Assembly: GCA_016183615.1 (NCBI GenBank)
Contig: JACPEG010000030.1
Location: forward strand, 1 to 64,000
Origin: Betaproteobacteria bacterium
Lineage (GTDB): Bacteria; Pseudomonadota; Gammaproteobacteria; Burkholderiales; UBA6910
DNA length: 64,000 bases
Direction: 5' to 3'
Part shown: positions 9,910 to 61,318 of the stretch, one piece after another
Numbering within the stretch: position 1 is the first letter of the stretch
Layout of the letters: the number at the start of each line of letters is the position of its first letter
The notes under the pieces: model-generated
What the model saw: the letters and a program-made list of their open reading frames with translations, nothing else
Told to the model about the DNA's origin: nothing
Database searches by the model: none
Made by a program: the position numbers and the translations under genes

Positions 9910-10132
9910 GTCCACCTCCTGGGCGCCCCGTCGGGCCCGTTCCCTTCCGGGGCATTGGGGCGATAATCCTTCGACCGGCCCGGGCGGGGGAAATTGCGCC
10001 CCGGCGGTAGAATGGACCCAACCGCGGCGTATTCGTCAATCCGGCGCAGGCCTGAACCCGGACTCCAACAAGCCAACGGACTACGGCCTGGTTGCGACTA
10101 CAGCGTACGTCGACGCGCCCGAGGAGACCCCC

Positions 10133-10207
10133 ATGCTCAAGCTCTACGGCTGTCCCAACACGCGCTCCTTCCGCGCCCTATGGGCCCTGGAGGAGGCCGG
10201 CGGGTGA
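10133..10207 (+). pseudogene. N-terminal relic of a glutathione S-transferase, now a 24-codon leader
   Basis: Twenty-four codons (MLKLYGCPNTRSFRALWALE then EAGG and stop) match the start of a bacterial glutathione S-transferase: beta strand 1, the Cys/Ser-x-x-Ser/Thr glutathione site loop and helix 1. The rest of the gene is gone. Its stop codon overlaps the GTG start of the next gene as GTGA, so ribosomes translating the relic (site GAGGAG before its ATG) could re-start on the large gene. I read it as a fossil end of a deletion that has become a translated leader; whether it is used is not shown. Confidence 0.55.
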
Positions 10208-13038
10208 GCGGGCGGATTACCGAGGGCATGCCGGTCCCGGAAACGGAGGCGGGCGCGGCCGGTGCGCTGCTGCACACGGTGAGCCGGCTTGCCGCCGAGC
10301 TGCATCCCCATCGGGCGGTCTCCGCGCCGGTCACGCTCGACAGCGCCCTGGAGCGGGATCTCGGGTTCGATAGCCTGGGGCGGGTGGAATTGCTGCTGCG
10401 CCTGGAGCGCGCCTTCGGGGTGAGCCTGCCGGAGCAGGCGCTGGTGAGCAGCGAAACTCCGCGCGATCTGCTGCGGGCGGTGCTCGCAGCGGTCGCGGCG
10501 CCGGGGCTGGCGGCGCCGCCGGAGATGAAGCACCTCGCTCCGGAGCGGGCCGAGGCGGCGCCGGTGCAGGCGGCCACGCTGGCGGAGGTGCTGGAGTGGC
10601 ATGCCGCCGCCCATCCCACTCGAGTCCACCTGGTGGTGGAAGGGACAAGGGGCGAGGAGCAGGAGATCGGCTACGGCACACTGCGGGAGCGGGCCCGGGC
10701 GGTGGCGGCGAGTCTGCAGGCGCGGGGCCTCGGGCCGGGCCAGACGGTGGCGATCATGCTGCCCACGGGCCCCGATTATTTCTACAGCTTCCTCGGGGTG
10801 CTGCTCGCCGGCGCAATCCCGGTGCCGATCTACCCGCCGGTGCGCCTCGGCCAGATGGAGGAGCACCTTGCCCGCCACGCGGCGATTCTGGCGAACGCGC
10901 TGGCGACGATGCTGATTGCGGTCCCCGAAGCGAAACCGCTGGCGGCGGGGCTGCGCTCCCGGGTGGGCGGGCTGCGCGAGATCGTCACGCCGGCGGAGCT
11001 CGCCGGGCCCGAGGCGGCGCCGGCGCGCCCCGCGATCGGCGCGAGCGACATCGCGCTGCTGCAATACACCTCCGGCAGCACCGGCAGCCCCAAGGGCGTG
11101 GTGCTCACCCACGCCAACCTGCTCGCCAACATCCGTGCCATGGGGCAGGCCGCGCAGGTGACGCCCGGGGACGTGTTCGTGAGCTGGCTGCCGCTTTACC
11201 ACGACATGGGCCTCATCTGCGCCTGGCTTACCAGCCTGCACTACGCCTGCCGCTTCGTCGTCATGTCGCCGCTCGCGTTCCTGGCGCGGCCGGCGCGCTG
11301 GCTGCGGGCGATCCACCGGCACCGGGGCACCATCTCCGGCGCGCCCAATTTTGCCTATGAGCTGTGCCTGCGCAAGATCGAGGACGCACAGCTCGCCGGA
11401 CTGGATCTCGGTTCCTGGCGCATCGCCTTCAACGGTGCCGAGCCGGTGAGCCCCGAGACCATCACCGGGTTTCAGGAACGCTTCGGGAAATACGGGCTGC
11501 GCCCGGAGGCCGTCGCCCCGGTGTACGGGCTCGCGGAATGCTGCGTGGGGCTTGCCTACACGCCGGGGCGCGGGCCGGTCATCGACCGCATCCGGCGCGC
11601 CGAATTCGTGACCTCCGGCCGCGCGCTGCCCGCCGCTGCCGAGGAGTCCGACGCCCTGCGCTTCGTGGGCTGCGGCCGGCCCCTGCCTGGCCACGAGATC
11701 CGCGTCGTCGATGGAACGGGCCACGAGGTCGGGGAGCGCCAGGAGGGGCGGCTCGAGTTCCGGGGGCCGTCGGCGACCAGCGGCTACTTCCGCAATCCTG
11801 AGGCGACCCGCAGGCTGTTCCGGGGCGATTGGCTTGACTCGGGAGACTACGCCTACACGGTCGCCGGCGAAATCTACGTGACCGGCCGCGCCAAGGACGT
11901 GATCATCCGCGCCGGGCGCAACGTCTATCCCCAGGAACTGGAGGAGGCGGTCGGCAATATCCCAGGCATCCGCCAGGGCAGCGTCGCGGTGTTCGGCTGC
12001 CCCGATCCCGCCGCCGGCACCGAGCGCCTGGTGGTGCTGGCGGAAACGCGGGAAGCCGCCCCCGCCGCGCTGGAGCGGCTGCGCGGCGCCATCGGCAACG
12101 CGACCGTGGATCTGCTGGGGGCGCCGCCCGATGACATCGTGCTTACCGCGGCCCACGCGGTGCTCAAGACCTCCAGCGGCAAGGTCCGGCGCGCGGCCAC
12201 CCGCGAGCTCTACTTGCGGGGATTCAGGGGTCGGTGGGCGCTGTGGCTCGAGGCGGCGCGCCTGGCCTGGCGCGAGGCGGCAGGGCGGCTTCGCCGCAGC
12301 TCGGCCGCCGCCTCCGGCTTGCTTTACGCCGCCTATGCCTGGACCCTGTTCTGGCTGCTGGCAACGCCCACCTGGACCATGGCGTCGCTCCTGCCGCGTC
12401 CGGCCTGGAGCTGGGCCGTGAGCCGAATCGGCGCGCGCCTGCTGGCTCGTGCCACGCGCACGCCATTTTTCGTGGAGGGTCTGGAGCATCTGCCCCAAGC
12501 GGCACCCTGCGTGCTGGTGGCGAACCACGCCAGCTATCTCGATGGCATCGTGCTGGTGGCCGCCCTGCCGCGGCGGGGATTCAGCTTCGTCGCCAAGCGG
12601 GAGCTGCGGGAGCGCCCGGTCTCCCGGGTCTATCTCGAGCACCTGGGCGCGGAGTTTGTCGAGCGCTTCGAGGCCCGGGAGGGCGCAGCCGACACGGCGC
12701 GCCTGGCCCAGGCGCTGCGCGGGGGGCGGTCCCTGATTTTTTTTGCCGAGGGCACCTTCGGCCGCGTGCCGGGGCTGGCGGCATTCCGCATGGGCGCGTT
12801 CGTGGCCGCCGCCCAGGCCGGGGTGCCGGCGCTGCCGGTCACCATCCGCGGCACCCGTCCCGTGCTGCGGGCCGGTCATTGGTTCCCGCGGCATGGCGCC
12901 ATCAGCGTCATCGTCGGCCGTCCCATCCTTCCGCAAGGGACCGACTGGACCGCCGCGGTGGGGCTGCGGGATGCGGTTCGCGCGGAGATCCTGCGCCGCT
13001 GCGGCGAGCCCGACCTGGCCGGGCCATCCGGAGGGTGA
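10204..13038 (+). CDS. ACP - fatty acyl-AMP ligase - PlsC acyltransferase fusion
   Basis: A 944-residue protein with three enzymes in one chain. Residues ~10-90 are an acyl-carrier domain with the phosphopantetheine Ser57 in GFDSLGR. Residues ~125-670 are an adenylating domain of the FAAL type: YTSGSTGSPKGVVLTHANLL, then LPLYHDMGLICAWL and SGAPNFAYELCLRKI. After a membrane-like helical stretch (~700-750), residues ~755-940 are a PlsC/LPLAT acyltransferase with NHASYLD (His775, Asp780) and FAEGTFGRVPGL. The likely reaction is activation of a free fatty acid as acyl-AMP, loading on the internal ACP and transfer to a lysophospholipid or similar acceptor. The start may be GTG 10204, overlapping the GST relic, or ATG 10228. 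Aas of E. coli joins related activities but in another order and without a FAAL domain. Confidence 0.85.
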   Translation: MSGRITEGMPVPETEAGAAGALLHTVSRLAAELHPHRAVSAPVTLDSALERDLGFDSLGRVELLLRLERAFGVSLPEQALVSSETPRDLLRAVLAAVAAPGLAAPPEMKHLAPERAEAAPVQAATLAEVLEWHAAAHPTRVHLVVEGTRGEEQEIGYGTLRERARAVAASLQARGLGPGQTVAIMLPTGPDYFYSFLGVLLAGAIPVPIYPPVRLGQMEEHLARHAAILANALATMLIAVPEAKPLAAGLRSRVGGLREIVTPAELAGPEAAPARPAIGASDIALLQYTSGSTGSPKGVVLTHANLLANIRAMGQAAQVTPGDVFVSWLPLYHDMGLICAWLTSLHYACRFVVMSPLAFLARPARWLRAIHRHRGTISGAPNFAYELCLRKIEDAQLAGLDLGSWRIAFNGAEPVSPETITGFQERFGKYGLRPEAVAPVYGLAECCVGLAYTPGRGPVIDRIRRAEFVTSGRALPAAAEESDALRFVGCGRPLPGHEIRVVDGTGHEVGERQEGRLEFRGPSATSGYFRNPEATRRLFRGDWLDSGDYAYTVAGEIYVTGRAKDVIIRAGRNVYPQELEEAVGNIPGIRQGSVAVFGCPDPAAGTERLVVLAETREAAPAALERLRGAIGNATVDLLGAPPDDIVLTAAHAVLKTSSGKVRRAATRELYLRGFRGRWALWLEAARLAWREAAGRLRRSSAAASGLLYAAYAWTLFWLLATPTWTMASLLPRPAWSWAVSRIGARLLARATRTPFFVEGLEHLPQAAPCVLVANHASYLDGIVLVAALPRRGFSFVAKRELRERPVSRVYLEHLGAEFVERFEAREGAADTARLAQALRGGRSLIFFAEGTFGRVPGLAAFRMGAFVAAAQAGVPALPVTIRGTRPVLRAGHWFPRHGAISVIVGRPILPQGTDWTAAVGLRDAVRAEILRRCGEPDLAGPSGG

Positions 13039-13080: not shown

Positions 13081-13130
13081 GTAGGAGCGAATTCATTCGC
13101 GACCCCGGTCGGGGATAAATCCCCTCCTAC
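13081..13130. repeat. Palindromic repeat family B (single full unit)
   Basis: GTAGGAGCGAATTCATTCGC followed by GACCCCGGTCGGGGATAAATCCCCTCCTAC. The outer GTAGGAG/CTCCTAC arms pair and two inner palindromes are nested inside. Further copies are at 54496, 59181 and 61207. It lies between the convergent ACP-FAAL-PlsC and ureG genes and may act as an mRNA end. Confidence 0.85.
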
Positions 13131-25486: not shown

Positions 25487-25501
25487 GAAACATATGGTTT
25501 C
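25487..25501. promoter_or_regulatory. Candidate IclR-type operator, proximal to xsc
   Basis: GAAACATATGGTTTC, a perfect 5-bp dyad (GAAAC/GTTTC) with a 5-base spacer, ending 25 bases before the xsc start. The region is AT-rich unlike its surroundings, with TATGATATC just upstream as a possible -10. Binding here would block or overlap the xsc promoter. Confidence 0.6.
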
Positions 25502-25526
25502 ATTTTATAACATTTTTGGAGGCCCC

Positions 25527-27314
25527 ATGGGCAACGAAGCGGTAATCCAACGGACGATGGTGAGCGGCAAGACGCGTATGACGCCCAGCGAGGCGTTTGT
25601 GGAGACGCTGGTGGCCAATGGCGTGAAGCACGTGTTCGGCATCGTCGGTTCGGCCTGCATGGACGCCCTCGATCTGTTCCCGGCGGCGGGCATCCGCTAC
25701 GTTCCGGTGGTGCACGAGCAGGGCGCCGGCCATATGGCCGATGGTTACTCCCGGGTCTCCGGGCGCCATGGCGTATGCATTGCCCAGAACGGGCCCGGGA
25801 TCACCAACTTCGTCACCGCGGTGGCCGCGGCCTACTGGGCCCACAGCCCGGTGGTGGTGATCACCCCCGAGGCCGGCACCATGACCATGGGCCTGGGCGG
25901 GTTCCAGGAAACCGACCAGCTGCCGATCTTCTCCAGGATCACCAAATACCAGGGGCACGTGAACAACCCGCGCCGCATGGCCGAGATCGCGGGCCGCTGC
26001 TTCGACCGGGCGATGCTGGAGATGGCGCCGGCCCAGCTCAACATCCCCCGCGACTACTTCTACGGGGACTACGAATTCGAGATCCCGCAGCCGATTGTCG
26101 TCGAGCGCGGCGCCGGCGGCGAGAGAAGCGTGAACGAAGCCGCCGATCTGCTCGCCTCGGCCCGGTTCCCGGTCATCATAGCGGGCGGCGGCGTCATCAT
26201 GGGCGAGGGCGTCAACGCCTGCGTCGCCCTGGCGGAGCTGCTCGGCGCGCCGGTGGTGAACAGCTACCTCCACAACGACTCCTTCCCCGCCGGCCATCCC
26301 CTGTGGTGCGGCGCGCTGGGTTATCAGGGATCGAAGGCGGGCATGAAACTCATCTCCCGGGCCGACGTGGTGCTGGCGCTGGGCACCCGCCTGGGGCCGT
26401 TCGGCACCCTGCCCCAGCACGGCCTCGACTACTGGCCCAAGGATGCCAGGATCATCCAGGTGGATGCAGACCCCCGGATGCTGGGCCTGGTGAAGAAAAT
26501 CACCGTGGGCATCTGCGGCGATGCGAAGGCCGCCGCCGCGGCCCTGACCGCGCGCCTCAAGGGACGGGCCCTCGCCGGGCAAGCCAACAAGGACGGCCGT
26601 CTGGCGGAAATCCGCAAGGAGAAGGAGGCCTGGGAGAAGGAACTCGCCGAGTGGGCGCACGAGCGCGATCCCTATTCCCTCGAAGTGGCACGCAACGCCA
26701 AGGAAATGCACCCGCGCCAGATGCTGCGCGAGCTGGAGCAGGCGATGCCGCGCGACGCCATGGTGTCCACCGACATCGGCAATATCTGCTCGGTCGCCAA
26801 CAGCTACCTGCGCTTCGATCGCCCGCGAAGCATGTTTGCCGCCATGAGCTTCGGCAATTGCGGCTATGCCTTTCCCACCGTCATCGGCGCCAAGCTGGCC
26901 GCCCCGGACCGGCCGGCCGTTGCCTACGTGGGGGACGGGGCCTGGGGCATGAGCTTCGGCGAAATCCTGACCTGCGTGCGGGACAATATCCCGGTCACCA
27001 CGGTGGTGTTCAACAACCGGCAATGGGGCGCGGAGAAGAAGAACCAGGTGGATTTTTACAGCCGCCGCTTCGTCGGCACCGACCTCGTAAACCCGAGCTT
27101 TGCAGCGATTGCCCGGGCCATGGGAGCGGAAGGCCGGGTAATCGACAAGCTCTCCGACGTGGGCCCGGCGCTGGCCGCCGCCTGCGCGGCGCAGCGGGAG
27201 GGCAAGACCACCATCCTGGAGATGATGGTCACCCGTGAACTGGGCGATCCGTTCCGGCGCGACGCCCTGTCGAAACCGGTGCGCTTCCTGGCGAAATACC
27301 AGGACTATATTTAG
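25527..27314 (+). CDS. xsc: Sulfoacetaldehyde acetyltransferase
   Basis: A 595-residue thiamine diphosphate enzyme that turns sulfoacetaldehyde and phosphate into acetyl phosphate and sulfite, the C-S bond cleavage step of C2 sulfonate use. N-terminal domain: MTPSEAFVETLVANGVKHVF, VPVVHEQGAGHMADGYSR with the catalytic Glu; C-terminal ThDP motif YVGDGAWGMSFGEI ending at VVFNN. The family mark NNRQWGAEKKNQVDFYSRRF and end LAKYQDYI point to Xsc rather than acetolactate synthase. The ATG at 25527 follows GGAGG; a longer opening to 25494 would overlap the operator. It is the first gene of the operon and sits next to genes for both neighbouring steps. Confidence 0.95.
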   Translation: MGNEAVIQRTMVSGKTRMTPSEAFVETLVANGVKHVFGIVGSACMDALDLFPAAGIRYVPVVHEQGAGHMADGYSRVSGRHGVCIAQNGPGITNFVTAVAAAYWAHSPVVVITPEAGTMTMGLGGFQETDQLPIFSRITKYQGHVNNPRRMAEIAGRCFDRAMLEMAPAQLNIPRDYFYGDYEFEIPQPIVVERGAGGERSVNEAADLLASARFPVIIAGGGVIMGEGVNACVALAELLGAPVVNSYLHNDSFPAGHPLWCGALGYQGSKAGMKLISRADVVLALGTRLGPFGTLPQHGLDYWPKDARIIQVDADPRMLGLVKKITVGICGDAKAAAAALTARLKGRALAGQANKDGRLAEIRKEKEAWEKELAEWAHERDPYSLEVARNAKEMHPRQMLRELEQAMPRDAMVSTDIGNICSVANSYLRFDRPRSMFAAMSFGNCGYAFPTVIGAKLAAPDRPAVAYVGDGAWGMSFGEILTCVRDNIPVTTVVFNNRQWGAEKKNQVDFYSRRFVGTDLVNPSFAAIARAMGAEGRVIDKLSDVGPALAAACAAQREGKTTILEMMVTRELGDPFRRDALSKPVRFLAKYQDYI

Positions 27315-27426
27315 GCAGCAAGGGCGGTCGCCTCGCGGCGCCGCCTGAAGGCAATATGAACGGAGCCGACCCAATAACGACACGCGGCGCCGTATCCACC
27401 AACTGTTGAGGATGAAGGAGGAGTGT

Positions 27427-28389
27427 ATGGAAGCCCGGCTTGTACGCTTTGGCGCCGCTATTGCGGCCGCAACCACCCTGCTGGCAGGGTCCATCGGAAC
27501 CGCGCTGGCCCAGGAAAAATATCCGTCCCGCCCGGTCGAATTCATTGTCCCGTGGGGTCCCGGAGGGGGCGCAGACCAGCTTGCGCGCCTCACCGGCAAG
27601 CTCCTGGAAGCCGAGCTCAAGACCTCGTTCCCCGTGGTCAACGTGCCCGGAGCCACAGGCGGCACCGGCATGGCCAAGCTGTTGGCGGCGCCTCCCGATG
27701 GCTACGCCATGGCCGTCTATATCGCCGACTCCCATGCCCTGCTGGCCGCGCCGAATGCGCGCTGGAGCATCAGCGACGTCGTTCCGGTGGCGGTCATGAT
27801 CAAGGCCCCGTCCTTTTTGTTCGTCGCCAAGGACAGCAGGTTCAAGACCTGGGCGGACTTCGAGCGCGAGGCCAAGGCCAATCCCGGCAAGCTCAAGGTG
27901 GCCACCCTCGGCTTCGGGAGCGTGGATGACTTCACTCTGAGCTACCTGGAAGCCAAGGGGATCAAAGTGACCCAGGTGCCCTACGCCAAGCCGGGCGAGC
28001 GCTATGTGTCGGTGCTGGGCGGGCACGTGGACGCCCTCTATGAACAGGCGGGAGACGTGGCGCAGTTCCTGAAGAGCAACCAGATGCGCCCGATCATCGT
28101 GTTCGGCAAGGAACGCTACCCGGCGTTCAGGGATGTGCCGAGCTCCCAGGAGCTGGGCTATGACATCGCTCTGCCGCAGTTCCGCTCGATCGTGGTGCGC
28201 GCGGGCACACCCCCCGAGCGCATCAAGGCGCTCTCCGGCGCGCTGGCCAAGGTGGCGGCGAGCGGCGAGTACAGGAGCTTCCTTCAGGAGCAGTTCGCCC
28301 ACAGCGACAGCTTCCTGGACAGCTCGCAGGGGGCGGCCTTCGTCCAGGCGCAGCTCGATGACATGAAGCGGGCGGCGCCCAAGCGCTGA
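27427..28389 (+). CDS. tctC: Tripartite tricarboxylate transporter (TTT) binding protein, TctC/Bug family
   Basis: A 320-residue periplasmic binding protein with signal peptide (AAIAAATTLLAGSIGTALAQ). YPSRPVEFIVPWGPGGGADQLARL and PGATGGTGMAKLLAAPPDGY are Bug-family marks. It would bind an organic acid and hand it to TctA/TctB. Context (between xsc and sauST) predicts sulfoacetate as ligand. ATG 27427 has AGGAGG upstream. In the described sulfoacetate pathway of Cupriavidus the importer is, to my knowledge, a single MFS protein (SauU), so a TTT system here is different. Confidence 0.88.
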   Translation: MEARLVRFGAAIAAATTLLAGSIGTALAQEKYPSRPVEFIVPWGPGGGADQLARLTGKLLEAELKTSFPVVNVPGATGGTGMAKLLAAPPDGYAMAVYIADSHALLAAPNARWSISDVVPVAVMIKAPSFLFVAKDSRFKTWADFEREAKANPGKLKVATLGFGSVDDFTLSYLEAKGIKVTQVPYAKPGERYVSVLGGHVDALYEQAGDVAQFLKSNQMRPIIVFGKERYPAFRDVPSSQELGYDIALPQFRSIVVRAGTPPERIKALSGALAKVAASGEYRSFLQEQFAHSDSFLDSSQGAAFVQAQLDDMKRAAPKR

Positions 28390-28422
28390 AGCCCGCGTCC
28401 CGAACGACACAAGGAGAAGGTC

Positions 28423-29028
28423 ATGCCGTCGTCGCCGATCCCCGCTTCCCTTGTTCCGAAACGGAGCCTGAAGCTCATGGACACGAACAAGCTGAAGAAA
28501 GCCGGCCCCTATGCCGTGGTGCTGGTTGTCACCGCCGCCCTGTATGGGCTGGCGGGGCAAATCGACTACACCCCGAGGCACGCCCAGCTCGGTCCCGATT
28601 TCTGGCCCAAGCTGTGCCTGGCGCTGGCCGCTCTGACATGTCTCTACGAAATCGGCCGCGCGTTACTGAGGAAGGAGGACGCGGCCGAGGTCAGCGGCAT
28701 CGCCGAGGCCCTCGACCACGATCAGATCGAGGCCGAGGCGCCGCCAAAGGAGTATCCCGCTCTGCTGGCTGCCGGTGCAGGCCTCACCCTGGCTTACGCC
28801 GTGCTGGTGTCGGTGCTGGGGTTCGTGCTGGCGACCTTCGGCTATCTCGTCGCGTTCATGTACTTCGGCCGCTACCGCAACCATCTGGTGATCTGGATCG
28901 CGAGCCTCGCCGGCACCTTCGCCTTCGCCGCCGTCTTCCTGAAGCTGGTATACGTGTCGCTGCCGCGCGGCGAGGAGCCGTTTGCCCAGGTCACGCAGCT
29001 GGTAATGAACCTGCTCGGCGTGCGCTGA
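28423..29028 (+). CDS. tctB: TTT transporter small membrane subunit TctB
   Basis: A 201-residue membrane protein with four hydrophobic helices (VVLVVTAALYGLAG, FWPKLCLALAALTCLYEI, LTLAYAVLVSVLGFVLATF, IWIASLAGTFAFAAVFLKLV) separated by an acidic cytosolic loop. The GPDFWPKLC motif is typical of TctB. AAGGAGAAGGTC precedes ATG 28423; ATG 28477 is an alternative start with a less good site. Confidence 0.85.
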   Translation: MPSSPIPASLVPKRSLKLMDTNKLKKAGPYAVVLVVTAALYGLAGQIDYTPRHAQLGPDFWPKLCLALAALTCLYEIGRALLRKEDAAEVSGIAEALDHDQIEAEAPPKEYPALLAAGAGLTLAYAVLVSVLGFVLATFGYLVAFMYFGRYRNHLVIWIASLAGTFAFAAVFLKLVYVSLPRGEEPFAQVTQLVMNLLGVR

Positions 29029-29053
29029 GCGAGCCTGATGCGGAGTCGCTGCC

Positions 29054-30556
29054 ATGATTGAAATACTTACGCAACTTGGGGCCGGACTGGCAAACTGCTT
29101 CACCCCGGCCACCTTCGCCATGCTCGCAGCAGGCATCGTGGTCGGCCTGCTGGTGGGCGTGCTGCCGGGGCTGACCCTGGTAATGGGGGTGATCCTGGTG
29201 CTGCCCTTCACCTACAAGATGGACGTGACTGCCTCGGTGGTGCTGCTCACCGCCATGTACATATCGGGCACTTACGGCGGGGCGTTCACCTCGATCCTGT
29301 TCCGCATCCCGGGCGAGCCCATCCACGTGCCGCTGCTATGGGACGGTTACGCCATGGCGCGGCGCGGACAGCCGGCCAAGGCGCTGGGCTGGACCCTGGT
29401 GGCGGCCCTCGGCGGCGGCCTGCTTTCAGCCGTCATCATGGTGCTGTTGACCCAGCCCATGGCGACCTTCGCCCTGCGCTTTTCCTCGCCCGAGTACTTC
29501 GCCATCGTGCTGTTCGGCCTGGCGAGCGTGATCGCCCTTGGCCGCGGCTCGCTGGCCAACGCGCTCATCAGCCTGTTCCTGGGGCTCATGATCGGGACCG
29601 TGGGGGTTGATGCCATCTATGGCAGCCACCGCTACACCTTCGGCATGCCGCTGCTCGCCGACGGCATCGAGTTCCTGGTGGTGATGGTGGGCGCGTACGG
29701 GGTGGGCGAGGTGCTGCTCCGGCTCGAACGGGGCTTCGCCAGCAAGCCCATCGGCAAGGTGGAAAACGCCCGCACCGAGCTGCCGAGCATGAAGGAGATC
29801 GGCGCGCTGAAAGGCACGTTTCTGCGCAGCACGATCCTCGGCAACATTATCGGCATCGTCCCCGGGGCCGGCGCCACCATCGCCTCGTTTGTGTGCTACG
29901 GCATCGAGTCCCAGTACGGCAGGCGCAAGAAGGAGATGGGCTCGGGCGTCCCGGAGGGTATTGTCGCGCCCCAGGCCGCGGCTACCGCGTCGGTGGGCGG
30001 CGCTCTGGTGCCGTTGCTCGCGCTGGGCATTCCGGGCAGCGGGGCGACCGCCGTCATCCTGGGCGCGTTCATGCTGCACGGGGTGCAGCCGGGGCCGCAA
30101 GTGCTGCTCTCCTCCGGGCCCATGGTCTACACTATCTTCGCCTCGGTGTTCCTCGGCATCCTGCTCATGTGCCTGCTCGGCTTCTTCGCCATCCGGCCGC
30201 TGGTGAAGATTCTGGACTTCCCGGAGGCGGTGGTGTCGGCCTTCGTGATGATCCTGTGCTTCGTGGGCGCGCTCTCGATCCGCAACAACGTGACGGACCT
30301 TTGGCTCATGATCGGCTTCGGCGGAGTGGGCTACGCCTTCGAAAAGCTCAAGTTCCCGATTGCGCCGCTGGTGCTCGGGGCCATACTCGGGCCGCTGGCC
30401 GAGGAATCGTTCATGAATTCCATGATCAGCTTCAGCAATGACTGGACCGTGTTTTTCACCCGGCCGATCTCGGCGCTGGTGATGATGTTGACCGCGATCG
30501 CCCTGGTGCTGCCCGCGATCAATCAGATGCGCGCGCGGCGCGGGGCCCGGGCATGA
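29054..30556 (+). CDS. tctA: TTT transporter large membrane subunit TctA
   Basis: A 500-residue permease with about 11-12 membrane segments. GVLPGLTLVMGVILVLPFTY near residue 38 is the first TctA motif, and IIGIVPGAGATIASFVCYGI near 265 is its internal repeat; GIPGSGATAVILGAFMLHG is another mark. It carries out secondary (ion-driven) transport of the acid delivered by TctC. Its stop overlaps an ATG at 30553, but the next gene more probably starts at 30589. Confidence 0.93.
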   Translation: MIEILTQLGAGLANCFTPATFAMLAAGIVVGLLVGVLPGLTLVMGVILVLPFTYKMDVTASVVLLTAMYISGTYGGAFTSILFRIPGEPIHVPLLWDGYAMARRGQPAKALGWTLVAALGGGLLSAVIMVLLTQPMATFALRFSSPEYFAIVLFGLASVIALGRGSLANALISLFLGLMIGTVGVDAIYGSHRYTFGMPLLADGIEFLVVMVGAYGVGEVLLRLERGFASKPIGKVENARTELPSMKEIGALKGTFLRSTILGNIIGIVPGAGATIASFVCYGIESQYGRRKKEMGSGVPEGIVAPQAAATASVGGALVPLLALGIPGSGATAVILGAFMLHGVQPGPQVLLSSGPMVYTIFASVFLGILLMCLLGFFAIRPLVKILDFPEAVVSAFVMILCFVGALSIRNNVTDLWLMIGFGGVGYAFEKLKFPIAPLVLGAILGPLAEESFMNSMISFSNDWTVFFTRPISALVMMLTAIALVLPAINQMRARRGARA

Positions 30557-30588
30557 GCTGCGCGGCTGGAATGCGAGCAGGAGCGGCT

Positions 30589-31989
30589 ATGAGCGCGAAC
30601 GGCGTGATGGATCTGGTGGCTGACCGGATGGAGCGGGCGCGTGCCGCCCAGCAGGTCTTCGAGAGGTACACACAAGAGCAGGTGGACGAAGTGGTCACGG
30701 CGGTCGGCTGGGCAATCGTCCATCCCGAGCGCAACCGCGCGCTCGCCGAGCTCGCGGTCAAGAGCACAGGGCTCGGCAACGTGGCTGACAAAGTCGTCAA
30801 AAACCGGCGCAAGACCATGGGCCTGCTGCGGGACCTGCGCGGCGCTAAAACGGTGGGCGTGATCGCCGAATATCCGGAGCAGGGCATCGTGGAAATTGCC
30901 CGGCCGGTGGGGGTGGTCGGAGCGGTGGTGCCCTCCACCAACCCGGCGGCAACCCCCGCCAACAAGACGATCAACGCTCTCAAGGGGCGCAATGCCGTGA
31001 TCCTCGCCCCCTCCCCCAAGGGCGCGGGCACCTGCGCGAAGCTGCTGGAGTTCATTCACGCGGAGCTTGGCCGGGTGGGCGCGCCGCCGGACCTGGTGCA
31101 GATGCTTCCGCTTCCGGTTACCAAGGAGCTTACGCTGGAGCTCATGCGCCAGGTGGACCTGGTGGTGGTCACCGGCTCCCAGAGCAACGTGCGCGCCGCC
31201 TATTCCAGCGGCACGCCGGCCATCGGCGTGGGCGCCGGCAACGTGGTGTCCATCGTGGAGGAGAGCGCCGACCTCGCCGCTGCGGCGGCCAACATCCGGC
31301 GCTCCAAGATTTTCGACAATGCCACCAGCTGCTCCTCGGAAAATTCGGTGGTGATCCTCGACGCCGTGTACGCGCCGACGGTGGCGGCGCTGGAGCGCGA
31401 GGGCGGCGTGATGCTCACCGCCGCCGAGAAGGCGCGGCTCCAGTCGGTCATGTGGCCGGACCGGAAGCTCTCCGCGGCGGTGACCGCCAAGGCAGCACCG
31501 GAGATCGCCAGGCTCGCCGGAATCGAGCGCGCGCGGGAGGCCCGATTCCTGATGGTGGAGGATGACGGCGCCGGGCCCGACCACCCGTTCTCCGGAGAAA
31601 AACTCTCGCCGGTGCTGACCGTGTACCGCGCCCGCGGCTTCGAGCACGCCATGGACATCGCCCGGGCGGTGTACCGCTACCAGGGCGCTGGGCACTCCAT
31701 CGGCATTCACACCCGCAACGACGAGCACGTGCTGCGCCTCGGACTGGAGCTGCCGGTGTGCCGGGTGATCGTGAACCAGGCCCACTGCATCGCCAATGGC
31801 GGGAGCTTCGACAACGGACTGCCGTTCTCGCTCTCCATGGGCTGCGGCACCTGGGGCCGCAACAGCATTTCCGACAATTTGAACTACCGGCATTTCCTCA
31901 ACATCACCCGCGTCGCCCGGCCGATCCCGCCGGTGGAGCCCACCGAGGAGGAATTGTTCGGGGCCTACCGCAGGAAATATGGAGCCTGA
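30589..31989 (+). CDS. sauS: Acylating sulfoacetaldehyde dehydrogenase (SauS-like)
   Basis: A 466-residue CoA-acylating aldehyde dehydrogenase. The Rossmann region VGVVGAVVPSTNPAATPANK, GVGAGNVVSIVEESADL and the catalytic Cys248 in DNATSCSSENSVV are intact. In sulfoacetate breakdown the SauS enzyme reduces sulfoacetyl-CoA to sulfoacetaldehyde. Other members of the family work on acetyl-CoA or succinyl-CoA, so the substrate rests on the adjacent xsc, CoA ligase and pta genes. I chose ATG 30589 (CAGGAG nine bases upstream); ATG 30553, overlapping the tctA stop, adds 12 residues. The 3' end overlaps the ligase gene by 11 bases. Confidence 0.88.
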   Translation: MSANGVMDLVADRMERARAAQQVFERYTQEQVDEVVTAVGWAIVHPERNRALAELAVKSTGLGNVADKVVKNRRKTMGLLRDLRGAKTVGVIAEYPEQGIVEIARPVGVVGAVVPSTNPAATPANKTINALKGRNAVILAPSPKGAGTCAKLLEFIHAELGRVGAPPDLVQMLPLPVTKELTLELMRQVDLVVVTGSQSNVRAAYSSGTPAIGVGAGNVVSIVEESADLAAAAANIRRSKIFDNATSCSSENSVVILDAVYAPTVAALEREGGVMLTAAEKARLQSVMWPDRKLSAAVTAKAAPEIARLAGIERAREARFLMVEDDGAGPDHPFSGEKLSPVLTVYRARGFEHAMDIARAVYRYQGAGHSIGIHTRNDEHVLRLGLELPVCRVIVNQAHCIANGGSFDNGLPFSLSMGCGTWGRNSISDNLNYRHFLNITRVARPIPPVEPTEEELFGAYRRKYGA

Positions 31990-33508
31990 CGTGCGCACGG
32001 TGCGCCACCACATCGATTCGCGGGCGGCGTCCCAGCCCGACGCGACCTACCTCGTCGCTCCCGAAACCGGGCGTGTCCTGACCTACGGAAAACTCCAGGC
32101 CAAATCCGTCGCGCTGGCCCGCTTCCTGCGCGGCCAGGGTCTGCGCAAGGGCGACAAGGTGGGGCTCATGATGCACAACGGCTACCAGACCGCGCGGCTG
32201 CTGCTGGGAGTGATGTACGGCGGCTACGTGGTGGTGCCGGTGAATCTGCTGTCCCAGCCCTCGCAACTGGAATACGTGATGGATCATTCCGACGTGCAGG
32301 TGATATTTTGCGCGGACGAATTCACGGAAAGGCTGCAGGCGGCGCTGGCCCGGGTGCGACGCACGGTGCGCGTGCTGATGATCGACCCCGACGCCGAGGA
32401 GGTCTTCGACGAGCAGGCCGTTCCCGAACTGCCCCCGTGGACCGTGGATGAGGAGGACGGCGCGCTGCTCATGTACACCTCCGGCACCACCGGCCTGCCG
32501 AAGGGAGTGATCCTCACCCACAGGAACGTGATTGCAGGTGGCGAATACACCGGCGCCGCTCATGCGCTGACCGTGGACGACCGCGTTCTCTGTTCGCTCC
32601 CGCTCTACCACATCAACGGCCAGATCGTGACCACCGTGGCGCCCCTGGTGCACGGGGGCAGCGTGGTGATGCCCCACCGCTTCAGCGTGTCCGGCTTCTG
32701 GGAGCTGGTATCGGAGCACGGCTGCACCTGGATCAACGTGGTGCCTACCATCATTGCCTACCTGCTGAACGGTCCCGACCCGCGCGCGGCCGGCAGCGGG
32801 CTGCGGCTCGCGCAGCTGCGCTTCGGACGTTCCGCCTCGGCGCCGCTGCCGCCGGCGCTGCACCGGCAGTTCGAGCAGAAATTCGGCATCGGCGTGATCG
32901 AGACCTTCGGCATGACCGAGACTGCGGCCCCGTGCTTTTCCAACCCGCTGGATCCGGCGCGGCGCAAGTACGGCAGCCCGGGGCAGGCCTTCGGCAACGA
33001 GGCGAAGATCATCCACCCCAAGACGGGGGCGAGGCTTGCGGCAGGCGAGGTGGGCGAGATCATGGTGCGGGGCGACAACGTGATGACCGGCTATTACAAA
33101 GCGGCCGATATCACCGCCAGGACCCTGGAGCGGGACGGCTGGATGCACACCGGTGATCTGGGCTATATGGATGCAGACGGTTTCGTGTTCGTCACGGGGC
33201 GGCTCAAGGAACTCATCATCAAGGGTGGCGAAAACATCGCACCGCGGGAGATCGACGAGGCGCTGCTCAAGCATCCGGCGGTGCTGGAAGCGGCGGCGGT
33301 GGGGATTCCCGACCAGAACTACGGGCAGGAGATCATGGCCTGCGTGGTATTGAAACCTGATTGCCGCTGCTCCGAGCAGGATCTCGCGGAGTTCTGCCGC
33401 AGCGAGCTCGGACAATACAAGACTCCCAAGATCATCAAACTCGTGGCGGCGCTTCCCAAGGGCCCCTCGGGCAAGGTCCAGCGGCTGAAACTCCTCGACG
33501 CGGCATAG
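31979..33508 (+). CDS. sauT: Acyl-CoA ligase, probable sulfoacetate-CoA ligase (SauT-like)
   Basis: A 509-residue AMP-forming ligase. Motif MYTSGTTGLPKGVILTHRN binds ATP, ETFGMTETAAP and GWMHTGDLGYMDADGF are core motifs, GRLKELIIKGGENIAPREI is the hinge and PKGPSGKVQRLKL carries the final catalytic Lys. In the sulfoacetate route it would make sulfoacetyl-CoA, which SauS then reduces. The overlap with sauS (start at 31979, before its stop at 31989) supports linked expression. By sequence alone other small acids are possible (oxalate-, malonate- and coumarate-CoA ligase-like relatives exist). Confidence 0.83.
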   Translation: MEPDVRTVRHHIDSRAASQPDATYLVAPETGRVLTYGKLQAKSVALARFLRGQGLRKGDKVGLMMHNGYQTARLLLGVMYGGYVVVPVNLLSQPSQLEYVMDHSDVQVIFCADEFTERLQAALARVRRTVRVLMIDPDAEEVFDEQAVPELPPWTVDEEDGALLMYTSGTTGLPKGVILTHRNVIAGGEYTGAAHALTVDDRVLCSLPLYHINGQIVTTVAPLVHGGSVVMPHRFSVSGFWELVSEHGCTWINVVPTIIAYLLNGPDPRAAGSGLRLAQLRFGRSASAPLPPALHRQFEQKFGIGVIETFGMTETAAPCFSNPLDPARRKYGSPGQAFGNEAKIIHPKTGARLAAGEVGEIMVRGDNVMTGYYKAADITARTLERDGWMHTGDLGYMDADGFVFVTGRLKELIIKGGENIAPREIDEALLKHPAVLEAAAVGIPDQNYGQEIMACVVLKPDCRCSEQDLAEFCRSELGQYKTPKIIKLVAALPKGPSGKVQRLKLLDAA

Positions 33509-33606
33509 CCGATCCAGGGGGCGCGATCCGTTAGGCGCCTTCCTGCCGGAAGCGGACCGTGTTTTCCTTGATCGCGGTCGTCGGGAAAATCATTAAGGAA
33601 TAGAGC

Positions 33607-34653
33607 ATGCGACGGACAGCCCGTTTGCGCCAGGCTCAGCGCGCTTCGAATTCTGAAAGAGACTTCGCCATGCTAGTTGAAGAACGAGAATGTGCCACGC
33701 AGCGTGGCCAGGACCTGCTGTCGGATCGCCCCCACCTCTGCCGCCTGCGGGATGCGGCCCGTGCCTCGGGTTCCCTGCCGGTTGCGGTGGCGTACCCTTG
33801 CGATGCCACCGCCGTCGAGGGCGCCCTGGCCGCGTGGAAAGAGGGTTTCATCGAGCCGATCCTGGTGGGCCCGCGCGCACGGGTGGAGCGAATCGTCGGG
33901 CAGTTCGACATTGATTCCGCGTCGCTTGCCATCATGGATTGCGCGGACGACCCCGAAGCCGCGGCGGCGGCGGCGGTCGAGCTGTGCAGGAGGGGAACTG
34001 CGGCGGCACTCATGAAGGGCAGCCTGCATACCGATGCGCTGCTGGGTGCGGCGCTCTCGAGGGAAAAGGGATTGAGGGCGGGGCGCCGGATCAGCCACGT
34101 GTTTGTTCTCGATATCCCCAGCGTGCCGCGGCCGCTGCTTGTTACGGATTGCGTCGTGAACATTTCGCCGGGGCTTCAGGACAAACGCGACATCGTGCAG
34201 AACGCGATCGATTTCGCCCACGCCATAGGAATAGAGCGGCCCTACGTCGCGATCCTGTCGGCGGTAGAGACGATCAATCCAGCCATACCCGGAACCCTGG
34301 ACGCTGCGGCCCTATGCAAAATGGCAGACCGCAAGCAGATCAGGGGCGCGGTCCTCGACGGGCCCCTGGCATTCGACAACGCGATTTCCGAACGTTCGGC
34401 GAAAAACAAGGACATTCAATCGCCGGTTGCGGGTCGCCCCGACATCCTGATCGTGCCGAACCTGGAGGCGGGGAACATCATCTACAAGCAGCTGGTTTAC
34501 CTCGCTGGCGCCGAGTGCGCGGGTATCGTGCTGGGGACTACGGTGCCCATTATCCTGACGAGTCGTTCCGATTCGGTCCCGAGTCGTGTTGCCTCCTGCG
34601 CGCTTGCTGTCATTCAGGCACGCGCCCGGCAGACCAACAAGCGGCCGGTCTAG
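33607..34653 (+). CDS. pta: Phosphate acetyltransferase (Pta, phosphate acetyl/butyryl transferase family)
   Basis: A PTA/PTB-family enzyme of 348 residues (327 if started at ATG 33670). Motifs: ALMKGSLHTDALLGAAL, RRISHVFVLDIPSVPRPLLV, DCVVNISPGLQDKRDIVQNA, and DGPLAFDNAISERSAKNKDI with NLEAGNIIYKQLVYLAGAEC at the CoA/phosphate site. It would convert acetyl phosphate from Xsc to acetyl-CoA, closing the route. A site reading AAGGA lies before ATG 33607, a weaker one before 33670. It follows sauT by 98 bases without an obvious terminator between, so it is probably the last gene of the operon. Confidence 0.9.
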   Translation: MRRTARLRQAQRASNSERDFAMLVEERECATQRGQDLLSDRPHLCRLRDAARASGSLPVAVAYPCDATAVEGALAAWKEGFIEPILVGPRARVERIVGQFDIDSASLAIMDCADDPEAAAAAAVELCRRGTAAALMKGSLHTDALLGAALSREKGLRAGRRISHVFVLDIPSVPRPLLVTDCVVNISPGLQDKRDIVQNAIDFAHAIGIERPYVAILSAVETINPAIPGTLDAAALCKMADRKQIRGAVLDGPLAFDNAISERSAKNKDIQSPVAGRPDILIVPNLEAGNIIYKQLVYLAGAECAGIVLGTTVPIILTSRSDSVPSRVASCALAVIQARARQTNKRPV

Positions 34654-45227: not shown

Positions 45228-48053
45228 TCAGAATCCGTACTTGTCCAGCCGGAGCTTGAACGCCTTTTCTCCGCCCTCCATCACGGTCTTGATGGTGTCG
45301 CGGATTTCCGGAATGTCGATAGCTCCCTCGTTGGCAATCCGCCCACGGGAATAGTCGCCGGCGACGCGATAGTCACACCACACAACGAGTTCGGAATCAC
45401 CATTAACGACTAGATTTGCGTTGTGGCTTGAAAAGATCAACTGACGCCGGGTCTTCGCCCGCCAGACCCGTGTCACGATGTCGAAGATGATCTGATTGTC
45501 CAAGTCATCCTCCGGCTGGTCGATGACAAGGGGCGGACCGGGCTGGTTTAGGAGTGTGATGACAAGCGCGGTTGCCTGCTGTCCGGCCGAGGCGTTTTCA
45601 AAAGGAATGTATTCCTGCTCTTTGGTCCGATATTCAAAGGTCGTTTCGTCCTCCAACGACGTAAGCGCCAGCTCAAGCCAAGTCTCGGGAACAAGTTTCT
45701 CCGCCAGCTTCGCAAGGTCGCTATCGCCGAACCCGGACTGCGCGAGCGCAGGCGACTCCGGCCGTGCGGAGGGCTGGTCGGCCGAAGGCTTATAGTCCGC
45801 CAGCCTTTCGAGCTCATCGAGGATACCGTCCCACAACGCGATCGGATCGTCTGATTCCCCAATGGTTCGGAGCAGTTCCTCGATTTTCGCTGCGCGAAGG
45901 CCAGAGCCTTTCATGATAGATTTCATCTGGCTATCCACGGCGTTCATGTTTGCGCCGCGCAGCGCGGTTGCACGAATTATCCCGTCCGAAAGCTCTGTCA
46001 GCTTGGCGCACTGCTGCGCATAGAGGTCACCCCGCTGCCGGTGGAGTTGTCGCCACTGCTCGCGCAAGCTGCGGAATGATGATTCGGGATCTCCAAGGGT
46101 CGCTATCTCGCTCTCAGCCGCGCTAATGCGCTCACTGATCGTTTGGATCTTCTGCTCGAGGTCCGCGAGGGATTTCAATTGCGACTCATGAGACGAAGCC
46201 GCGTTCTTTGCAGCTTTGTAAGATTCATCGAAAGCCCCTTTGACGTTGACCCATTCAGCACGCGCGGCCCCGTAATCGCCCTTGAAATTTCCTTGTGCAT
46301 CGATGACCTCTGCGAGAAGATCATTCATTTTCTTCGCAAGCCCGGAAAGTGCCGTGACCCGCTCCTGAAGGACATTCTGGAGTTTGGAAAGTACGCCTTT
46401 CTCTGGATGGTCATCGAGGGAGACTTTGGGCTTGGTCGGCAACCCGGACAGTCGCTGCGACAGATTCGCAGTCGCAGTCCGCAAGTCGCGGACATCACCG
46501 TCCCACTTTCCGACGAGTAGGTCCGCTTCAAGATAAATGGGTTGCTTCGCCAACAATTGCTGCTGCTCCGGAGACAGTCCCGTCAGCGAGTCACGAATGC
46601 TTTTCGCTTGCTTGGAAAGTGACTGGAGCGACAGCCGGTCTTCGCGAAGCGTCTGCTCGACCGCCTGCTTACGACGGACGTGGCTGTAGATCTGCCGCAA
46701 CTGAGACGCCAGCGAACGTATCTGCGCGTCGATGGAATCGAGCTCCGTCTTGATACCTGATCGCACGAAGCGATTCAGCTCATCGACGCGATGGCCGACC
46801 CTGCTGAGCTGCTTCTGGCTGTAAGCTTGGATCGGAAGCAGCGTTCGGATGTCTTCCTTTGTGCACGGCTGAAGCTCGGCGTCACCAATGCGCAGAAGGA
46901 TTTCTCCCGTTGCGCTCCTTCGTCTGACAAGGTGAGGAACGCCGTTGACTTCAAATCGGATTTCCACGGTCGCCTCATACTTCTTGAGCGTGTTGTCTAC
47001 AAGACGTTGCTGGCGAACGCCGACAGATTCGGTATCGGCTTCATCTTCGACTGCGTCGTGCTCATCACACAGCCCCCATCTGAGGTACTCAAGAATCGTG
47101 GACTTGCCGGTGCCCCGGCTACCAATGAGCGCCGTGTATTGCGGATTGAGGTAGAGATCGACCGGCCCCATAAACTCGCTGTTTGATACGTGCAATGACC
47201 GGATAATGACGGACGGTAGTTGCGGGGTCTCTTGCGAGATTCGTGAATCTTGCGCAAGGCAGGCTTGCCGCAACGCCTCGGCGGTCGCCGTAGCCCACTT
47301 AACCCAAGTGGAACACTCCCCGAGATTGGCGTGATCTTCCGAGCGAGAGTCAGATGTCTGAAACAATGCAATGCGCTTGTTGCCGTACTTCTTGTCTTCG
47401 CCGTTCAGGATCTTGGCATCGCCGACTTTGCACTTCGCGATCGACCCATCAAGGTATCCGCCGACGCAGGGCATAGTTTTATATTTCTGCGCGACGCCAT
47501 CTCTCAGGAGCGTCGAATTCCCGCCGCTGGTCACGTTCGGGAGGATGATGTAACGGTCCCGCAGGAAATCATGCTCGTCCAGCTTTCGTTTTAACTCCTC
47601 GAGCGTCGTGACGGAGTTGAGCCTTTCGACTTCGGCTGCCTTCGGCTCGGAATCAGGCGCGGGTGTGATCGCGAGCACAGTCAGAACTTGGGGCAGAAGC
47701 GTTTCCGGGAAATCCGAGTCGAGGATGAGGATGGCCTGACAAGGGACGTTGAGGGTCAGTTCAACTGCGGGGAATACGACGAGCTTTTGATCGGCCGGTA
47801 GCTCTTTGCCGCTGGCATCGGTTTCGTGCGCCGCCGCGTCTTTGATGTAAGGGAAGAAGCAGAGATCGTGATGATCGGTGATCGCAATGCCCTTGAGGGG
47901 TCGAGCGCGGCATGCCTCCACGAGCTTTTGCGCATAGGCCCGTCGATCCTCGGACGAGGTGTATGCTTTTCCCTTCCACGCCCGATCTCTGGGTGTATGG
48001 ACCTGAAAATCACATCGGAAGAAATGTGCTCCCTTATCCTTCTGGTCGCTCAT
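45228..48053 (-). CDS. PHP-domain/SMC-like AAA ATPase (Ppl/TrlF-like, probable defence protein)
   Basis: A 941-residue protein. Residues ~10-260 are a PHP phosphoesterase domain (CDFQVHTPRDRAWKG, AITDHHDLCFFP, PAVELTLN). Residues ~285-941 form an SMC/RecN-like ATPase: Walker A IGSRGTGKSTILEYLRWG, Q-loop PIQAYSQKQLS, two long coiled-coil arms (~420-720), signature FENASAGQQATALVITLL, and Walker B PPLVIDQPEDDLDN with a D-loop and HNANLVV. The PHP plus ATPase pairing matches TrlF-family proteins and the antiphage gene called Ppl. Base use is less GC-rich than the neighbours, indicating transfer. ATG 48053 (GGGGA upstream) is preferred to GTG 48065. Confidence 0.85.
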   Translation of the reverse strand: MSDQKDKGAHFFRCDFQVHTPRDRAWKGKAYTSSEDRRAYAQKLVEACRARPLKGIAITDHHDLCFFPYIKDAAAHETDASGKELPADQKLVVFPAVELTLNVPCQAILILDSDFPETLLPQVLTVLAITPAPDSEPKAAEVERLNSVTTLEELKRKLDEHDFLRDRYIILPNVTSGGNSTLLRDGVAQKYKTMPCVGGYLDGSIAKCKVGDAKILNGEDKKYGNKRIALFQTSDSRSEDHANLGECSTWVKWATATAEALRQACLAQDSRISQETPQLPSVIIRSLHVSNSEFMGPVDLYLNPQYTALIGSRGTGKSTILEYLRWGLCDEHDAVEDEADTESVGVRQQRLVDNTLKKYEATVEIRFEVNGVPHLVRRRSATGEILLRIGDAELQPCTKEDIRTLLPIQAYSQKQLSRVGHRVDELNRFVRSGIKTELDSIDAQIRSLASQLRQIYSHVRRKQAVEQTLREDRLSLQSLSKQAKSIRDSLTGLSPEQQQLLAKQPIYLEADLLVGKWDGDVRDLRTATANLSQRLSGLPTKPKVSLDDHPEKGVLSKLQNVLQERVTALSGLAKKMNDLLAEVIDAQGNFKGDYGAARAEWVNVKGAFDESYKAAKNAASSHESQLKSLADLEQKIQTISERISAAESEIATLGDPESSFRSLREQWRQLHRQRGDLYAQQCAKLTELSDGIIRATALRGANMNAVDSQMKSIMKGSGLRAAKIEELLRTIGESDDPIALWDGILDELERLADYKPSADQPSARPESPALAQSGFGDSDLAKLAEKLVPETWLELALTSLEDETTFEYRTKEQEYIPFENASAGQQATALVITLLNQPGPPLVIDQPEDDLDNQIIFDIVTRVWRAKTRRQLIFSSHNANLVVNGDSELVVWCDYRVAGDYSRGRIANEGAIDIPEIRDTIKTVMEGGEKAFKLRLDKYGF

Positions 48054-48207
48054 GCAGTTCCCCACTCCGGGCTAATTCTGCCACTTTTTTAACATATTCT
48101 GGCCAAACTGGTAGGCCTGCTCGCGCAGCTACTCCGGCCCCCGCAAATAAAATGGGATTTGCCGCCTCGCCAAAAAACGCAACGATGCTCTTTGCAATGT
48201 CTGACAT
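48034..48207 (-). pseudogene. N-terminal fragment of a SIR2-domain protein
   Basis: A 57-codon frame: MSDIAKSIVAFFGEAANPIL, then FAGAGVAARAGLPVWPEYVK and a short tail, stopping at 48034. GAGVAARAGLPVW is the NAD-binding start of SIR2 domains (GAGVSxxxGLPxW). The remaining ~200 residues, including the catalytic His region, are absent. The fragment overlaps the first codons of the PHP-ATPase in another frame. SIR2 domains are common NAD-depleting effectors in phage defence, so this is probably the relic of a partner or neighbour gene. Confidence 0.6.
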
Positions 48208-54499: not shown

Positions 54500-54608
54500 G
54501 GGGGATTCATCCCCGACCTCCCCGCATCCCCGACCGGGGTCGCGAATGAATTCGCTCCTACGCCGGGAGGTTGGCCATTGCGGGGGTCGCGAATGAATTC
54601 GCTCCTAC
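54496..54608. repeat. Palindromic repeat family B (one and a half units)
   Basis: GTAGGGGGGATTCATCCCCG, then CCCGACCGGGGTCGCGAATGAATTCGCTCCTAC, then a second GGGGGTCGCGAATGAATTCGCTCCTAC at 54580. Lies after the FixH-like fragment. Confidence 0.88.
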
Positions 54609-59180: not shown

Positions 59181-59269
59181 GCGGGAGCGAATTCATTCGC
59201 GAACCCGGTCGGGGAGATCGGGGATGAATCCCCTCCTACAAGACCCCCGTAGGAGCGAATTTATTCGCG
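59181..59269. repeat. Palindromic repeat family B (two units)
   Basis: GCGGGAGCGAATTCATTCGCG, GGGGATGAATCCCCTCCTAC and GTAGGAGCGAATTTATTCGCG in the convergent gap between the SPOR gene and the GlcD-like gene. Confidence 0.88.
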
Positions 59270-59283
59270 CCCCGCGCCCCGGT

Positions 59284-61206: not shown

Positions 61207-61318
61207 GCGGGAGCGAATTCATTCGCGACCCCATCGCCGGGACCTGTCGTCGGGGATGAATCCCCTCCTGCATCCCCGTGGTGACGTTTTTCTTGTAGGA
61301 GCGAATTCATTCGCGACG
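61207..61318. repeat. Palindromic repeat family B (two units)
   Basis: GCGGGAGCGAATTCATTCGCG, GGGGATGAATCCCCTCCTGC, then GTAGGAGCGAATTCATTCGCG at 61297. It lies between the convergent GNAT and rfaE2 genes; a TTTTTCTT run between the units may help termination. Confidence 0.88.

Follow-up and report, generated by a model that had tools for sequence, protein, structure and literature searches.

A fused ACP-FAAL-PlsC protein is a candidate coenzyme A-independent lysolipid acyltransferase

What does a bacterium make with one polypeptide that carries an acyl carrier protein (ACP), a fatty acyl-AMP ligase (FAAL) and a PlsC-type acyltransferase, and onto which lipid is the acyl group placed? This question is raised by a gene in a 64,000-nucleotide stretch of a Betaproteobacteria bacterium (GenBank assembly GCA_016183615.1, contig JACPEG010000030.1, positions 1 to 64,000, hereafter the window), where an open frame at 9994-13038 on the plus strand surrounds a coding sequence for such a fusion. 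An initial annotation of this DNA proposed a self-contained route from free fatty acid to acylated lipid that needs no coenzyme A (CoA). The domains and residues present are consistent with such a route, and they modestly favor a reading of the protein as an Aas-like, self-loading, CoA-independent lysolipid acyltransferase. Its acceptor is probably a lysophospholipid with the head group still in place, which is the best guess, or another lysolipid that has no free phosphate monoester, rather than lysophosphatidate.

The three domains and their order, as first annotated, are found by Pfam along the chain as PP-binding (8.7e-10), AMP-binding (3.1e-74) and Acyltransferase PF01553 (6.7e-23), and relatives align with it over the full length of the chain at 51-68% identity, far beyond chance. 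A named collection yielded at least 593 relatives, of which 80 were kept as loci. Conservation was read from an alignment (A2) of 75 of the 88 available sequences, which omits 13 of the 80 loci on account of contig ends or in-frame stops (L024, L026, L031, L047, L056, L063, L064, L068, L069, L071, L076, L084 and L091). No key catalytic residue is lost: all 75 members keep the carrier serine together with the histidine, aspartate, R813, glutamate and glycine of the PlsC domain, indicating that the three parts are jointly under selection. The serine sits in the context GFDSLGR, the DSL-serine expected of an acyl carrier protein, and was correctly described as intact; it is Ser49 when residues are numbered from ATG 10228, as done here, and Ser57 in the earlier numbering from GTG 10204. 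The source genome holds one match to a phosphopantetheinyl transferase. The ACP and PlsC folds are read from sequence, as the structure search spanned the FAAL part only, which makes their non-appearance there uninformative.

The FAAL character that had been assigned to the ligase was upheld at the level of individual residues, by which the ligase is a FAAL. Its closest solved relatives by sequence are FAALs, and residues 108-668 of the predicted model (mean pLDDT 83.2) match the FAAL structures 3lnv, 3kxw, 3pbk and 7r7e/7r7f with Z of 48.6-50.5, the six best matches lying at about 48-50 and the comparison with 3pbk giving a TM-score of 0.90 by target. The traits of FAALs named in the relevant passages of PMC8460268 are a plugged CoA pocket (EcFAAL W224, M231 and F279), a helix at T252-R258, and the pocket prolines P107 and P226. 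In A2, the plug is represented by W320 (75/75), M327 (72/75) and F375 (75/75), and the P226 equivalent by P322 (75/75). The model predicts a helix at 348-353, the position aligned to T252-R258, and the FAAL-specific insertion at about residues 440-486 is aligned through in EcFAAL. The curated NCBIfam cut-off for FAALs was missed (best PRK09192, 415 bits vs 600), but this shortfall does not outweigh the residue tests, the models being narrow subfamilies. The ligase shares 33% identity, the fold, the plug residues and the FAAL-specific helix with FAALs such as EcFAAL (3PBK) and the Synechococcus olefin synthase FAAL (7R7E). Unlike these, it has an ACP joined to its N-terminal side and an acyltransferase to its C-terminal side, and the polyketide synthase or non-ribosomal peptide synthetase (PKS/NRPS) context was not found.

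The nearest functional parallel is Aas (2-acylglycerophosphoethanolamine acyltransferase/acyl-ACP synthetase), for which the sequence from E. coli MG1655 was used. According to the passages of PMC11416262 on this system, the synthetase domain of Aas makes acyl-ACP, its acyltransferase domain uses acyl-ACP on lysophospholipid, and the lysolipid is flipped by LplT, a major facilitator superfamily (MFS) protein that also binds the Aas acyltransferase domain. Like Aas, the fusion joins an adenylating domain and a PF01553 acyltransferase on one chain, and it would likewise work through an acyl-ACP intermediate. As the initial annotation had it, Aas is arranged differently, with the acyltransferase first, the synthetase second and no ACP domain, and it is without the FAAL hallmark: run alongside the fusion it fails most of the FAAL residue tests, having alanine for the plug tryptophan, phenylalanine for the methionine and little of the insertion, with only the F375 equivalent retained. 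Its motif III reads EGRI. Aas is paired with an MFS protein both in that literature (PMC11416262) and as a gene neighbor in the E. coli genome; the fusion gene has an MFS gene of a different family beside it in 11/80 loci and none at the window.

In the proposed mechanism, the FAAL domain would adenylate a free fatty acid with ATP, and the acyl group of the resulting acyl-AMP would pass in cis to the phosphopantetheine arm of the ACP domain, yielding acyl-S-ACP. The PlsC-fold domain at the C terminus, anchored to the inner side of the membrane, would then use the tethered acyl group to acylate a lysolipid. Two long predicted helices (residues 672-742) are probably the membrane-facing part, by analogy with the two-helix motif of Thermotoga maritima PlsC (TmPlsC). 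The logic would be that of Aas, with the carrier in cis, the domains in reverse order and a FAAL replacing the Aas-type synthetase, and in some lineages an adjacent ATG22-like MFS protein may play the part that LplT has for Aas, moving the acceptor.

The acyltransferase domain bears most directly on the acceptor. It resembles TmPlsC (5KYM) in its PF01553 fold, its HX4D motif and its phosphate-site lysine (K790, equivalent to TmPlsC K105, is lysine in 74/75), and H767, D772, R813, E841 and G842 are invariant in A2. It differs in motif III, which is EGT[F/L] instead of EGTR. R159 of the TmPlsC EGTR motif, together with K105, has been suggested to bind the phosphate of lysophosphatidate, as described in the active-site passages of PMC6688108. 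The equivalent position is F in 58, L in 15, C in 1 and I in 1 of the 75 members, and R in none, which disfavors lysophosphatidate and hints at a lysolipid that bears a head group; the label of a lysophosphatidate-type enzyme, given to this domain at first, is probably wrong. Motifs were also scanned in 28 non-fusion PF01553 loci from genomes of the same order, which are part of all such matches. Readable motifs were obtained for 23 of them (10 EGTT, 8 EG[RK][IL]T, 2 EGAT/EGST, 1 EGTR and 2 doubtful, with the readings of L106 and L118 likely in wrong frames); five gave no match, among them L100, read by eye as EGTR. EGTF was found in 0/23 of these control proteins vs 4/4 fusion proteins in the same scan.

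The retained fold, HX4D motif and lysine would nevertheless suit phosphatidic acid synthesis, in which the PlsC domain acylates lysophosphatidate, so that fatty acids recycled or taken up from outside would enter phospholipid synthesis de novo. R846, two positions past the lost arginine and conserved as R in 68/75, could take over phosphate binding, so that motif III argues against lysophosphatidate without excluding it. With the motif III arginine absent throughout, and with a separate PF01553 protein bearing EGTR (L100) in the source genome, which also holds a third with EGTT (L099), this explanation is considered unlikely. No more probable is the O-acylation of an aminolipid, for instance lyso-ornithine lipid. 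EGTR is likewise missing from OlsA-type enzymes, which resemble PlsC (PMC11631085), and four EGTT/EGST control proteins (G004, G014, G017 and G002) lie within about 1 kb of a match to PF13444, the OlsB family. The OlsA-type motif, EGTT, differs from that of the fusion, however, and it is not established that FAALs serve in aminolipid synthesis (PMC11631085). No OlsB-like gene was detected in the source genome or in another carrier (G039), OlsF-type synthases lying outside this search, and a third carrier (G019) has only a weak PF13444 match (E 2.3e-4). The sole PF13444 match in the 94%-complete source genome adjoins a LuxR-like frame and reads by eye as LuxI. Other carriers have strong PF13444 matches, OlsB being missing from some carriers and not all. 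Ornithine lipid, raised earlier as a possible acceptor, is accordingly unlikely in the source organism, in whose genome OlsB was not detected.

Slightly less probable again is the making of a specialized lipid (a glycolipid, lipopeptide or polyketide ester), whereby the FAAL and ACP would load a starter and the PlsC domain would release it onto a non-lipid alcohol. FAALs normally serve PKS/NRPS, according to the passages of PMC8460268 on their function. No PKS/NRPS family, however, ranks in the top 25 by frequency among the Pfam families of the 47 close co-directional neighbors examined, and the 80 loci show no conserved biosynthetic neighbor besides an MFS gene.

That MFS gene, for an ATG22-like transporter (PF11700), immediately adjoins the fusion gene in 11/80 loci and occurs nowhere else in the flanks (8 loci by a first clustering, 11 by translated search of the same DNA). 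Among the four arrangements (Table 1), the L079 copy is a C-terminal remnant of 65-72 residues and that of L068 is a distant relative at about 25% identity. The pairing occurs in cultured bacteria too, for example Malikia granosa and Pseudomaricurvus alkylphenolicus. The zone within 1.8 kb makes up 29% of the 870 kb of flanking DNA searched, so the chance of an all-adjacent placement is about 1e-6 for 11 loci and 2e-4 for 7 independent cases. On a tree of 80 rows (the window plus 79 loci, with L031 dropped), made by a quick method with no bootstrap, the MFS label changes 7 times, 6 of these changes being forced by well-supported branches, in about seven lineages; this indicates that the pairing was gained or retained on several occasions. 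The intact transporters that were checked match Pfam ATG22, whereas NCBIfam matches are weak and mixed. No solved relative was found by sequence, and the open-licence literature yielded nothing usable on a role for bacterial ATG22/UMF1 transporters. A conserved operon was considered and rejected, as clustering of the flanks of the 80 loci and the window gave no adjoining family in at least 4 loci except the MFS, with neighbor orientation about even.

Several observations weigh against an Aas-like role with a transporter partner and a head-group acceptor. Besides R846, which could substitute for the lost arginine, the MFS gene is not adjacent in 69/80 loci, nor at the window, and the source genome has its one MFS copy unlinked, on contig C38. 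In a sample of 300 genomes of the order, the source genome included, 36 match, 31 with the fusion and 5 with a FAAL only; 29 of the 31 fusions span all domains and two (G253 and G286) are cut at contig ends. None of these 31 carriers has the MFS gene within 5 kb of the fusion, the nearest lying at 15 kb (G232), and the adjacency counts of 11/80 and 0/31 differ (p 0.03), so the two samples disagree. The MFS gene is present in 18/31 carriers vs 116/269 other genomes and is not significantly commoner in the former (p 0.13); co-occurrence across genomes was discarded as support. Similarity of the MFS protein to LplT was not detectable by sequence comparison, and any analogy to LplT would be functional. 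Finally, at least 3/31 carriers (G212, G232 and G267) also hold a ligase-bearing Aas homolog, showing that the fusion and Aas do not simply replace each other. Mutual exclusion with Aas, hinted at in a sample of 60 genomes, disappeared in the 300-genome sample.

Many genomes of the order sample encode a protein that matches only about residues 5-602 of PRK08633 (MFS plus acyltransferase), an Aas-like fusion minus its ligase half.

The gene is widespread but patchy. Among 60 relatives searched at E 1e-100, 10 match, counting the source genome; of these, 8 are full length, 1 is truncated by the end of its contig and 1 has a FAAL only. Three genomes of the same family as the source organism (G001-G003) gave no match in this search, hence the patchiness. 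The 80 loci are mostly from Pseudomonadota; some belong to Thermodesulfobacteriota, and other phyla contribute one or a few records each. By their record titles, cultured carriers include Hahella, Zobellella, Massilia, Aromatoleum, Mycobacterium innocens and Rhodococcus aetherivorans; many other carrier records are metagenome-assembled genomes and possibly misbinned. On plasmids, 9/106 matching records cover 80% or more of the query and are annotated, where an annotation is given, as AMP-binding protein. Two plasmid loci, of Cupriavidus and Paraburkholderia (L134 and L136), have a second AMP-binding protein directly 5' of the fusion gene and a universal stress protein gene nearby, and a Sinorhizobium fredii plasmid (L135, 4533-6818) holds a version of about 760 codons with ACP and acyltransferase and an apparently shortened ligase.

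The architecture is already known, widespread and uncharacterized. A single phrase in the conclusions of PMC8460268 (Patil et al. 2021, eLife) mentions bacterial FAAL-like domains fused with lysophospholipid acyltransferases, giving no function there, and these fusions very likely belong to the same family as the window protein; the passages of that paper on them make no mention of the ACP domain, the acceptor motif or the MFS partner. No characterized member of the ACP-FAAL-PlsC family was found in the open-licence literature, and this passing mention is the only precedent met with for the architecture. What is new here is the acceptor-motif change and the recurrent MFS neighbor.

Table 1. 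Coordinates of the fusion gene, its parts and adjoining elements in the window, with the arrangements of the MFS gene at other loci
Feature	Position	Strand	Basis or loci
Upstream 24-codon frame resembling a glutathione S-transferase start	10133..10207	+	Pfam GST_N E 0.057, below cut-off
ACP-FAAL-PlsC gene	10228..13038	+	936 aa from ATG; 944 aa if GTG 10204 used
Acyl carrier domain, residues 7-87	10246..10488	+	Pfam PP-binding; helices in predicted model
Ser49 codon, phosphopantetheine site	10372..10374	+	S in 75/75 aligned members
FAAL domain, residues 112-666	10561..12225	+	Pfam; sequence and structure matches to FAALs
W320...M327, bulky, equivalent to CoA-pocket-filling EcFAAL W224, M231	11185..11208	+	Alignment; PMC8460268
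FAAL-specific helix position, residues 348-354	11269..11289	+	Predicted model helix 348-353, aligned to EcFAAL T252-R258
FAAL-specific insertion region, about residues 440-486	11545..11685	+	Aligns to EcFAAL with little gap
Two long helices ahead of acyltransferase core, residues 672-742	12241..12453	+	Predicted model
PlsC-fold acyltransferase core, PF01553	12469..12846	+	Pfam; T. maritima PlsC 5kym, E 1.8e-19
Motif I N-H-A-S-Y-L-D (H767, D772)	12523..12543	+	H and D in 75/75
Motif III E-G-T-F, residues 841-844; Phe at Arg position of lysophosphatidate acyltransferases	12748..12759	+	Alignment
Dispersed palindromic repeat just 3' of gene	13081..13130	+	Function inferred
MFS upstream, divergent			L024, L083, L048, L061
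MFS downstream, co-directional			L065, L067, L096
MFS downstream, convergent			L087, L068
MFS upstream, co-directional			L074, L079

At the window itself the gene stands alone, by eye, with glnA-like and alcohol-dehydrogenase-like frames upstream and convergent urease genes downstream, and it is the only full-length copy in the 3.7 Mb source genome. The 944-residue chain of the initial annotation holds if translation begins at GTG 10204, but homology prefers ATG 10228 and a protein of 936 residues: in a relative (L009), a stop lies a few codons 5' of the aligned ATG and both proteins open with M-P-x-P-E, making the ATG the more likely start. Against this, a GGAGGAGG stretch, noted by eye, precedes GTG 10204 by 7 nt, so that the GTG may still be used. 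The stop of the glutathione S-transferase-like frame at 10133-10207 overlaps this codon as GTGA; the frame has a single copy in the source genome, no counterpart was found in the relatives retrieved, and it may be what is left of a gene, acting as a translated leader. The palindromic repeat 3' of the gene, a possible transcript end, lies in a strongly folding stretch (z -4.19). Seven copies occur in the window at no more than 3 mismatches, vs 0 expected (13081-13102, 54540-54561, 54587-54608, 59181-59202, 59249-59270, 61207-61228 and 61295-61316), and the repeat is present in L099 too. Elsewhere in the window, genes for a thiamine pyrophosphate enzyme, a TctA transporter, an aldehyde dehydrogenase, an AMP-binding ligase and a phosphate acetyltransferase stand in a row at 25494-34650, presumably resembling a cluster for the degradation of sulfoacetate (Xsc, SauS, SauT, Pta), and a lower-G+C region encodes on the minus strand (45231-48065) a 945-residue protein with AAA_21, AAA_23 and weak SMC-like matches.

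Taken more broadly, and tentatively, the ACP-FAAL-PlsC protein and an ATG22-like MFS flippase might form a second, independently assembled bacterial machine for lysolipid remodeling, which would converge on LplT-Aas while being insulated from CoA and acting on a head-group lysolipid. If the proposed function is true, a broad set of bacteria would repair or remodel membrane lipid from free fatty acids without drawing on the CoA pool, by means of one polypeptide with an acyl carrier of its own, and FAALs would gain a role in the bulk membrane outside PKS/NRPS. A function would also be suggested for ATG22-like MFS proteins in bacteria, and lipid engineering would have a compact single-chain enzyme at its disposal. 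The change in motif III makes the question of the acceptor directly testable.

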